Assembly: GCA_007131245.1 (NCBI GenBank) | Contig: SLQX01000182.1 | Span: forward strand, 1-44,334 | DNA: 44,334 bases | Source of the DNA: Bacteroidales bacterium | Lineage (GTDB): Bacteria; Bacteroidota; Bacteroidia; Bacteroidales; UBA7960 | Reading direction: 5' to 3' | Made by a program: the position numbers and the translations under genes | The notes under the pieces: model-generated | Database searches by the model: none | The model's input: the letters and a program-made list of their open reading frames with translations, nothing else | Told to the model about the DNA's origin: nothing | Shown: positions 10,563-13,367 of the stretch, in pieces | Layout of the letters: each line of letters opens with the position of its first letter | How positions within the stretch are numbered: the stretch's first letter is position 1

Positions 10563-11732
10563 ATGACCACCCTGACAGCCAAAACACTTTCCGGTCTGGA
10601 AGATGTTTTGGCTGCAGAACTTAAAGACCTTGGTGCACATAATGTAAAACCCAAGAGACGTGCTGTACAGTTTGATGGCGATGACCTCCTGATATATAAA
10701 AGCAACTTGTGGTGCCGCAGTGCATTGAGTATCCTCAAACCTGTTTATAAATTCACTTTTGAAAGTCAGCAGGAGTATTACGACATTTTGCGGGCCTATC
10801 CCTGGGAAGAGTTATTTGCTGTAGACAAAACCATTTCCATTAACGCCCTGGCCTTTAGCTCTGTGTTCTCCAATACCCACTTCCTGGCCCAGCGTACCAA
10901 GGATGCCATAGCAGATTATTTTATTGATAAAGCAGGCAAGCGGCCCGATGTGGATTTGGATGATCCACAGGTAAAAGTCAATATTTTTATTCAGCAAAAC
11001 CAGTGCACTGTATCTTTGGATAGCAGTGGTGCACCTTTATTTAAAAGAGGGTACCGCCGAAAGAGCACTACAGCCCCCTTGAATGAGGTACTGGCCGCAG
11101 GTATTATCATGATTTCGGGCTGGGATAAGCAACAACCCCTTTACGACCCCATGTGCGGCAGTGGTACTTTTAGCATTGAAGCGGGTATGATGGCAATGAA
11201 TATGGCTCCGGCTATTTTCAGGAAAAACTTTTCCTTTATGCACTGGAATAGTTTTGATGCCCAAGGTTGGGACCAGATGCGGGAAAGTGCCGCCGCAGAA
11301 ACCCCGGGCCAATCTCTTCCCGAAATATTTGCCTCCGATATCAGTAACCTGAGTATGGATGCTGCCAGGCAAAATATTATGGAAGCTGGTTTGCTGGGAA
11401 GAGTACGACTTGAGAAAAAGGACTTTTTTGCATCAAAACCCCGTCACAATAATGGTACACTGGTCCTCAACCCACCCTATGGGAGAAGATTGCAAAGCCC
11501 GGATATTAGTGAGTATTACCAGAAAATAGGAGCCACGTTCAAACACAATTATCCTGGTTTCGAGGCTTGGGTTATAAGCCCCGATAAAGCACTTACCCAC
11601 AAAATTGGACTGAAACACACACACCGCCAAACGGTTTTTAATGGTCAGATTGAATGTCAGTTGTTGGGATACAAGCTATATCAGGGTACAAAAAGAGTTA
11701 GACGAAAGCGAATCGATCCAACCAAACAGTGA
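10563..11732 (+). CDS. THUMP-domain class I SAM-dependent RNA methyltransferase (RlmL N-terminal/YpsC type)
   Basis: 389 residues from the ATG at 10563 (a TTG at 10551 is less likely). Residues about 45-155 form a THUMP RNA-binding domain; a Rossmann methyltransferase follows with DPMCGSGTF (195-203, SAM binding) and NPPY (303-306), the motif of N2-guanine and N6-adenine methylases. By analogy with RlmL and YpsC it probably methylates 23S rRNA. It carries only one methyltransferase domain, unlike the two-domain E. coli RlmKL. The C-terminus (GTKRVRRKR) is basic. No terminator is obvious after the stop. Confidence 0.9.
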   Translation: MTTLTAKTLSGLEDVLAAELKDLGAHNVKPKRRAVQFDGDDLLIYKSNLWCRSALSILKPVYKFTFESQQEYYDILRAYPWEELFAVDKTISINALAFSSVFSNTHFLAQRTKDAIADYFIDKAGKRPDVDLDDPQVKVNIFIQQNQCTVSLDSSGAPLFKRGYRRKSTTAPLNEVLAAGIIMISGWDKQQPLYDPMCGSGTFSIEAGMMAMNMAPAIFRKNFSFMHWNSFDAQGWDQMRESAAAETPGQSLPEIFASDISNLSMDAARQNIMEAGLLGRVRLEKKDFFASKPRHNNGTLVLNPPYGRRLQSPDISEYYQKIGATFKHNYPGFEAWVISPDKALTHKIGLKHTHRQTVFNGQIECQLLGYKLYQGTKRVRRKRIDPTKQ

Positions 11733-11750
11733 TAAAATTTAAGGCAAAAA

Positions 11751-11782
11751 TGTGGTCAGAAAAAAATATTTTTATACCTTTG
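11751..11782 (+). promoter_or_regulatory. Candidate promoter upstream of structured intergenic region
   Basis: TACCTTTG (11775-11782) matches the -7 consensus. A weaker TGTG (11751-11754) lies 20 bases upstream. Transcription would begin near 11789 and run through the three stem-loops listed next. Confidence 0.45.
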
Positions 11783-11800
11783 CATGTGTTTTGATAATTT

Positions 11801-11860
11801 GGGTAAAAATGCGTTATTTTTATCCATTGGGTGCAATTCTTATTTGACAGCTGAGAATTG
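11801..11860 (+). repeat. Two successive stem-loops
   Basis: First: GGGTAAAAA (11801-11809) pairs with TTTTTATCC (11817-11825), 9 base pairs with one G-U, 7-base loop. Second: CAATTCT (11834-11840) pairs with AGAATTG (11854-11860), 13-base loop. Neither is followed by a T tract. They may form the 5' part of a longer structured RNA. Confidence 0.5.
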
Positions 11861-11893
11861 TCCCCGGATTTAAGGGTGATATGCTTGTTGTGA

Positions 11894-12034
11894 AACACGC
11901 GGATTCAGGAAAAAAAGGAGATTTGCCGTACAGAAAGAATTGACTGTTCGCAAATGAAAAAAGTTCAATACTTGTATTGGTTTTACATTTGACTTTTTCT
12001 GCCCTTGCGGCAAATTTTTCCTTTTTCCTTTTTT
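11894..12034 (+). ncRNA. Candidate small structured RNA, 6S-like rod
   Basis: The arms 11908-11928 and 12008-12028 pair over about 20 bases. Inside them CAGAAA (11931-11936) pairs with TTTCTG (11996-12001). Next comes an asymmetric bubble of 14 bases on the 5' side and 4 on the 3' side, then CAAATG (11951-11956) with CATTTG (11986-11991), and at the tip CAATAC (11966-11971) with GTATTG (11974-11979). Six Ts (12029-12034) follow the closing stem, so the rod could end its own transcript. A promoter candidate sits immediately upstream: TTG (11858-11860), 19 bases, then TATGCTTG (11880-11887), predicting a start near 11894 and an RNA of about 140 bases. A long hairpin with a central bubble is the layout of 6S RNA, though 6S RNAs are usually 160-200 bases. 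No open frame fits. It could instead be a pfkA leader. Confidence 0.5.
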
Positions 12035-12269
12035 AAGGATAAAGGATTTTCCCTCCTCCCTTTTTATATAGATAATCTACGTGAGTGTTAAAAAAGCCTT
12101 TAACCAAATTTTTTATTACTGTCCCAACAATATGGCTCTTTCATATGTGGAACAAAAGTCGGTTAATGATTGCACTCACCGAATAATAAAAACAAAACAA
12201 GCAAAATAACACCAATGGGTTACAGTTGGTAGCGTTTTGCTTTTTTATTGCGTACAAAATATAACAAAA

Positions 12270-13367
12270 ATGAAAAAAAGAGTATTGATTGCCACAGGTG
12301 GTGGAGACTGCCCTGGGTTGAATGCCGTAATCAGGGCTATTACCCTGCGTGCGTCGCAAGAGAAAAACTGGGAAGTAATAGGAAGCATCAACGCTTTTGA
12401 TGGTATATTGAATGAACCCAATGAAATCGCGGTGCTGGATGAAAAGCGAGTAGGAGGTATACACATACGTGGAGGCACCATCATTGGCACCACCAACAAA
12501 GGGGGCCCTTTTGCATGGCCCATCAAAAATCCTGATGGAACATGGGGAAGTGCCGACCGCTCCGATGAAATGTTACGCCGTTTACAATATTTGGGTGTGG
12601 ATGCAGTCATAAATATTGGAGGTGACGGGTCACAGGCCATCTCACAAAAATTTTATGAGAAAGGTTTAAACATTATAGGTGTTCCCAAAACCATTGATAA
12701 TGACTTGTCGGCCACCGATTTTACATTCGGTTTCCAAACTGCCGTTCAGGAAGCAACCACCGCTGTTGATAAGCTGGTTACCACAGCCGACAGTCATAAC
12801 CGGGTGCTTATCCTGGAGGTGATGGGCCGCTATGCCGGGTGGATTGCCTTGCATGCTGCGGTTGCAGGTGGTGCTCACGTATGCTTAATCCCTGAAATAG
12901 CGTATGATGTTCCCAAAGTAGTGGAAAGAATTTACCAGCGGTTTGACAAGGGAAGAGGTTTTGCCATCATTGTAGTTGCTGAAGGTGCCAAGCCTGTTGA
13001 AGGTGAAATGTACTATGAAGAAAGCTCTGAAACCGGTTACAAAAACGTACGCCTGGGAGGTGTTGCTACCAAGCTCATGAAAGAGCTTAAAGATGGTGGA
13101 CTGGAAGCAGATATGCGCGAAACGGTACTGGGGCACCTCCAAAGGGGTGGAACGCCCATAGCCTACGACCGCGTCCTGGCAACACAGTTTGGTGTGAAAG
13201 CTTTTGAAATGGTCCTGGAAGGCAAATATGGTGAGATGGTAGCATATCGTCATCCCAACATTGTGTCTGTGCCATTTAAAGAGGCCATTGCCCACTATAA
13301 TTTTGTTGATCCGCAATCAGACCTGGTGAAAACTGCCAGGGGTACGGGCATCTGTATGGGTGATTAA
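12270..13367 (+). CDS. pfkA: 6-phosphofructokinase
   Basis: 365 residues from the ATG at 12270; the longer frame adds an unconserved leader. It phosphorylates fructose-6-phosphate at C1, the committed step of glycolysis. Visible motifs are GGGDCPGLNAVIR (10-22, phosphate donor loop), GGDG (117-120), PKTIDND (139-145, with the catalytic Asp) and MGRYAGW (185-191). Position 104 in E. coli numbering is Gly, which favours ATP, while position 124 is Lys, usual in pyrophosphate enzymes; this Gly/Lys pair occurs in the actinobacterial-type ATP-PFKs. It is single and followed by a strong terminator. Confidence 0.95.
   Translation: MKKRVLIATGGGDCPGLNAVIRAITLRASQEKNWEVIGSINAFDGILNEPNEIAVLDEKRVGGIHIRGGTIIGTTNKGGPFAWPIKNPDGTWGSADRSDEMLRRLQYLGVDAVINIGGDGSQAISQKFYEKGLNIIGVPKTIDNDLSATDFTFGFQTAVQEATTAVDKLVTTADSHNRVLILEVMGRYAGWIALHAAVAGGAHVCLIPEIAYDVPKVVERIYQRFDKGRGFAIIVVAEGAKPVEGEMYYEESSETGYKNVRLGGVATKLMKELKDGGLEADMRETVLGHLQRGGTPIAYDRVLATQFGVKAFEMVLEGKYGEMVAYRHPNIVSVPFKEAIAHYNFVDPQSDLVKTARGTGICMGD

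Follow-up and report, generated by a model that had tools for sequence, protein, structure and literature searches.

Results

Organization of the rlmL-pfkA intergenic region

The locus occupies the gap between rlmL and pfkA on contig C280 of a Bacteroidales genome (G000); the window is the whole 44,334-nucleotide stretch that was analysed. A -7 box, a 5′ domain with three helices (P1, P2 and P3), a long hairpin rod, a linker and a second hairpin element (T2) follow one another in this gap up to pfkA. As had been described earlier, no open frame accounts for the gap before pfkA. A leader peptide was considered and rejected: the short frames of the conserved region vary among genomes and are interrupted by single-base indels. 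The features are listed below.

End at 11732: rlmL, the upstream neighbour
11775..11782, + strand: -7 box TACCTTTG of a sigma-ABfr type promoter; TAnCTTTG in 10/10 full copies
11786..11898, + strand: P1, closing stem of the 5′ domain (11786-11792 with 11892-11898), invariant but for its outer pair
11800..11826, + strand: P2 hairpin (11800-11809 with 11817-11826), two pairs with two-sided changes
11829..11865, + strand: P3/P3b hairpin (11829-11835 with 11859-11865; 11838-11842 with 11852-11856)
11866..11882, + strand: near-invariant single-stranded stretch GGATTTAAGGGTGATAT
11883-11889 with 11894-11900, + strand: local hairpin, alternative to P1
11908..12034, + strand: rod and T6 (outer arms 11908-11928 with 12008-12027, irregular inner helices, T6 at 12029-12034)
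12035..12200, + strand: linker, unconserved
12201..12246, + strand: T2, hairpin GCAAAAT...TTTTGC and then invariant TTTTTT, in 10/10 copies plus L090
12270..13367, + strand: pfkA, ATP-dependent 6-phosphofructokinase, 365 aa (NCBIfam NF002872, 355 bits, cut-off 253), start codon ATG at 12270

The gene under control of the leader is likely pfkA. Phosphofructokinase is the classic committed step of glycolysis. A second phosphofructokinase-family gene is present in the same genome (G000:C88:352-1338, L104; PF00365, 225 bits), and pfkA at this locus therefore need not be the sole gene for the enzyme.

A single promoter precedes the structured region

The preliminary description placed a promoter-flanked structured RNA before pfkA. 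The structured RNA is present, but with one promoter instead of two. The box claimed further upstream was found at 11775-11782 and is the only conserved sigma-A box of the locus. The Bacteroidota sigma-A -7 consensus is TAnnTTTG, with the box at -12 to -5 (PMC7366714, PMC9723704). Since sigma-A -7 boxes span these positions (PMC9723704), transcription is expected to start at about 11787. The letters of the other claimed promoter, TTG-N19-TATGCTTG, can be read at 11858-11860 and 11880-11887, but the promoter reading fails. Each box forms one arm of a conserved helix, and 5 of the 9 other copies are without one or both of them (the TTG is lost in L004, L005, L008 and L009; the TA is altered in L005 and L010). 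Between the rod and the pfkA ATG, a search for TAnnTTTG, which covers only consensus sigma-A promoters, gave no match in any of 10 genomes. The pfkA mRNA thus most likely carries the whole leader and passes T2.

Conservation, folding and covariation

Wherever the locus is assembled in this genus, the promoter and the following ~250 nt (11775-12036) are conserved, at ~80% pairwise identity. In nine genomes, mean pairwise DNA identity is 81% for promoter and 5′ domain, 79% for the rod and 71% for T2. The corresponding values are 43% in the linker, 33% from T2 to the ATG, 50% in the 60 nt upstream, 82% at the start of pfkA and 56% at the end of rlmL. The rod region (11895-12040) folds at -36.8 kcal/mol and its shuffles average -27.0 (z -3.1), in agreement with the hairpin first proposed. 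For the whole gap (11733-12270) z is -3.6, and 0/100 shuffles folded as well. Averaged over the nine genomes, the fold z of the 5′ domain is -3.5, that of the rod -4.0 (range -2.7 to -5.5) and that of the linker -0.4.

Alignment with relatives, which had been suggested as a check, revealed strong conservation together with some compensatory change. Four pairs and 9 cells carry two-sided changes, and 98.2% of cells are paired. The number of two-sided-change cells and the score are reached by 0/500 shuffles, and the number of pairs (4) by 26/500. The covariation is real but modest. All two-sided changes fall in P2 and P3 and none in the rod. Sequence variation is scarce in P1 and the rod arms, which are therefore backed mainly by folding and conservation.

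In the 5′ domain, the successive stem-loops noticed earlier are present at 11800-11826 and 11829-11865. The P3/P3b loop TGACAGC is conserved, and the compensatory pairs of this hairpin are AU to GC (4 sequences) and GU to UA/UG. Within 11866-11882, GATTTAAGGGTGAT is invariant in 10/10 aligned copies. An exact-pattern scan of 84,980 species returned 11 stretches, all of them this locus as far as they were matched to studied loci. The core pattern occurred in that scan only in MAGs, nearly all filed under Bacteroidales, Bacteroidetes or Sphingobacteriia. Several core-bearing records are labelled CSSed, a label shared with papers on soda-lake sediments; the remaining titles state no habitat.

The 3′ strand of the domain (11786-11900), AAACA(C/A)GC, pairs either with the 5′ end, forming P1, or with GCTTGTT, forming the local hairpin, and the two are mutually exclusive. 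One subclade favours P1 and another the local GCTTGTT hairpin; the outer pair of P1 is broken in one subclade, where the local hairpin is perfect. The alternation could be a switch or just drift.

The outer pairs of the rod are kept at 98-100% and are nearly invariant; its inner loops are not conserved in register. The rod is palindromic and matches its own complement too. Both the rod (11908-12028) and the T6 tail described for it (12029-12034) are found in the window, but the T6 is not conserved in relatives (L003 has TTCCTAAT and L009 CCCCCATTTT). A SAM-II riboswitch (RF01726) inside the rod was rejected, the match being at chance level (17.6 bits against a gathering score of 44, E 2).

T2, a conserved element before pfkA

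T2 had been missed by the preliminary description. It is the third conserved element, located 23 nt 5′ of the pfkA ATG, with a mean z of -4.1 (shuffles, nine genomes). Its upper stem is replaced by other pairing sequences among the copies. In L009 the whole stem is replaced, with CAGC/GCTG for ACCAG/CTGGT. The distance from the U6 end to the ATG is 21-24 nt in 6/10 full copies and 110-117 nt in 4/10; the longer gap could leave room for a hidden promoter without a consensus box. In L006, L007, L015 and L009 the segment from T2 to the start of pfkA is longer by ~90 bases, and the first three of these copies share a stretch TT(A/T)CCATTTACAAAAAA there.

T2 is terminator-like, and may terminate transcription. 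A simple terminator scan passed over both the rod and T2; the stem of T2 is A/U-rich and contains an internal loop. A search for an antiterminator gave no consistent pairing among genomes. Pairing of GGGTGATATGCTTG with the 5′ arm of T2 was clearly better than with shuffled arms in one genome only, and an antiterminator of this kind is suggestive at best.

Distribution of the RNA and likely origin of the probable leader

With model R1, the RNA was detected at the rlmL-pfkA locus of 10 g1 genomes. The match in G009 is partial, and two copies were found in G006 (9% contamination). G001 is an eleventh genome, in which DNA search located the 5′ half at the end of a contig. At the threshold used, G002 yielded no match for the RNA or for pfkA. 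Every copy lies between rlmL and pfkA, with pfkA downstream wherever the contig reaches; the RNA is single copy and was never found away from pfkA. The rlmL, leader and pfkA of the Bacteroidales genus also occur on L090 (PWOE01000098.1), which is filed under Candidatus Nealsonbacteria and is probably a mis-binned contig.

The RNA was not confidently found in 35 genomes from other genera of the family, nor in ~197 genomes of the order and ~394 of the class (some overlap); the filters of the large scans were stricter, and distant relatives may have escaped them. DNA-search matches in two other genera cover the promoter part only and do not adjoin pfkA or rlmL. A match to the rod in G112 (28.5 bits) has E 0.004 for one genome, and about one such match is expected by chance among 198 genomes. 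No Rfam family matches the locus RNA.

Other genera have a homologous promoter close before pfkA. In genera g5 and g6 the gap before pfkA contains TA(T/C)CTTTGCA, a T-rich stretch, a AAATTGGGGAAA-like sequence and TTTTTCC, and aligns with the g1 promoter and P2. The P2-like sequence lies at the same position in these pfkA leaders and folds as a hairpin in 3/4 examples. When the 50 nt after the promoter were compared with the short g5/g6 leaders, at most 1/500 shuffles did as well in 10 of 16 comparisons. For the remaining 6, which include every one of the four made with the window copy, 4-17/500 shuffles or fewer did as well. The likeness is weaker for the window copy than for other g1 copies. 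On the strength of this alignment, the g1 promoter is most likely an inherited pfkA promoter. P3, the rod, the linker and T2 were most likely added within genus g1, as judged from sequence comparison. In sister genera the promoter and first hairpin stand close to pfkA, so the genus would have inserted ~350 nt into the pfkA 5′ UTR. In genus g3, little DNA separates rlmL from pfkA, and some cases have no promoter.

Discussion

A probable genus-specific leader of pfkA

We consider it probable that the locus is a genus-specific, cis-acting long 5′ leader of the pfkA mRNA, which would attenuate pfkA expression. Its conservation, its fold, its fixed position, the lack of another consensus promoter and its likeness to the short leaders of sister genera are the observations behind this reading. 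The promoter at 11775 would start transcription at ~11787. The predicted fold of the RNA consists of a compact domain of several helices joined by invariant strands (11786-11900) and the long hairpin rod (11908-12028), after which an unstructured linker leads to the hairpin-U6 element T2 just 5′ of the start codon. The upstream domains may sense a signal, be it a metabolite, a protein or the conditions of transcription, and the sensed signal would set the passage of RNA polymerase through T2, and perhaps through the rod, into pfkA. We infer termination at T2 and a sensed signal, with regulated readthrough at T2 as the simplest reading. An outcome that the preliminary description had set against its own proposal, namely expression solely within the pfkA leader, is the likeliest one.

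Confinement to a single genus is unusual for a metabolite riboswitch and counts against a leader. A riboswitch-like version, in which the leader senses a glycolytic metabolite (e.g. fructose-6-phosphate, fructose-1,6-bisphosphate or phosphoenolpyruvate) and attenuates pfkA at T2, is doubtful. Like riboswitch and attenuator leaders such as the pfl and crcB motifs (PMC2864571), the locus has, ahead of a metabolic gene, a promoter followed by a conserved multi-helix RNA and then, still within the 5′ UTR, a terminator-like hairpin. In contrast to them, it matches no Rfam family by sequence or covariance model, precedes one gene in one genus and has a variable linker of 100-170 nt between domain and hairpin. 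Structured 5′ elements without Rfam matches are found in Flavobacterium psychrophilum mRNAs (PMC9723704). The locus resembles these lineage-specific structured Bacteroidota 5′ UTRs, which include those of carbon-metabolism genes; pfkA is not named in the main text of that report, and the likeness is one of description only (PMC9723704).

A limited literature search returned no direct control of phosphofructokinase by an RNA leader. The catalogue of cis-acting RNAs in Bacteroidota is poor. The locus offers a compact case in which a short pfkA leader of sister genera grew to a 450-nt structured leader in one genus, and the gain of the RNA element is thus datable and testable.

Alternative explanations

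Rather unlikely, yet the strongest competing reading, is a ~250-nt stand-alone or 5′-UTR-derived trans-acting sRNA (11787-12034) that ends at the rod and acts on other targets, pfkA being read by rare readthrough or from rlmL. Conservation is indeed strongest over exactly the promoter-to-rod segment and collapses in the linker, and the rod ends in a U-rich arm. The closeness of rlmL and pfkA in g3, with some promoters missing, makes readthrough from rlmL possible. 5′-UTR-derived sRNAs are known in Bacteroides (PMC7366714); as with those of Bacteroides thetaiotaomicron, the mRNA promoter here could also yield a short RNA. However, the RNA never occurs apart from pfkA, its promoter and P2 resemble short pfkA leaders of sister genera that have no rod, relatives do not keep the T6 that follows the rod, and the conserved T2 just before pfkA would go unexplained. 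In a dual role, premature termination at the rod or T2 would yield a functional sRNA and readthrough the pfkA mRNA. This would account for the conserved loop sequences of the 5′ domain as well as for T2, and we regard it as improbable.

The possibility that the pfkA-locus RNA is a 6S RNA (RNA polymerase mimic), as first proposed and in keeping with the rod shape, the intergenic place and the T-rich end, is very remote. Covariance-model searches of the window and of 11300-12300, up to E 5, gave no match to RF00013, RF01685 or RF01693, and scans of the genome itself with 6S models returned nothing at the pfkA locus. The large central bubble of 6S is not there as a conserved open bubble: the outer arms (11908-11928/12008-12027) are an almost fully paired, nearly invariant duplex. 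The rod shares with 6S-Flavo RNA (RF01685) and Bacteroidales-1 (RF01693) the form of a long irregular hairpin RNA in the same bacterial group, but the locus RNA differs from both in sequence and topology.

Moreover, a 6S-shaped family is already present elsewhere. Weak RF01685 matches were found in five genomes of three families, at syntenic places. Their alignment forms one rod with a closing stem, a ~14/13-nt central bubble and a terminal arm, and has 20 pairs with two-sided changes. Model R2, made from those sequences, finds one copy in 33/40 relatives across 18 genera, G000 included, and has no match in the window. The single-copy RNA of G000 lies at G000:C127:4251-4443 (L099, L026) and is probably the 6S RNA of the order. 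It scores far under the RF01685 gathering score (32 bits against 85), and the naming thus rests on shape, synteny and weak similarity. In B. thetaiotaomicron, a 6S RNA with product RNAs has been detected (PMC7366714). The R2 matches G038:C143:7229-7401 and G040:C55:1781-1962 coincide with sub-threshold RF01693 matches, and this overlap suggests that 6S-Flavo and Bacteroidales-1 belong to a single 6S family, with these sequences as the bridge.

That the folds arose by chance in AT-rich intergenic DNA, where A/T-rich arms fold easily and a palindromic rod matches its own complement, can be practically dismissed: the dinucleotide shuffles, the covariation and the conservation in at least 11 genomes contradict it.
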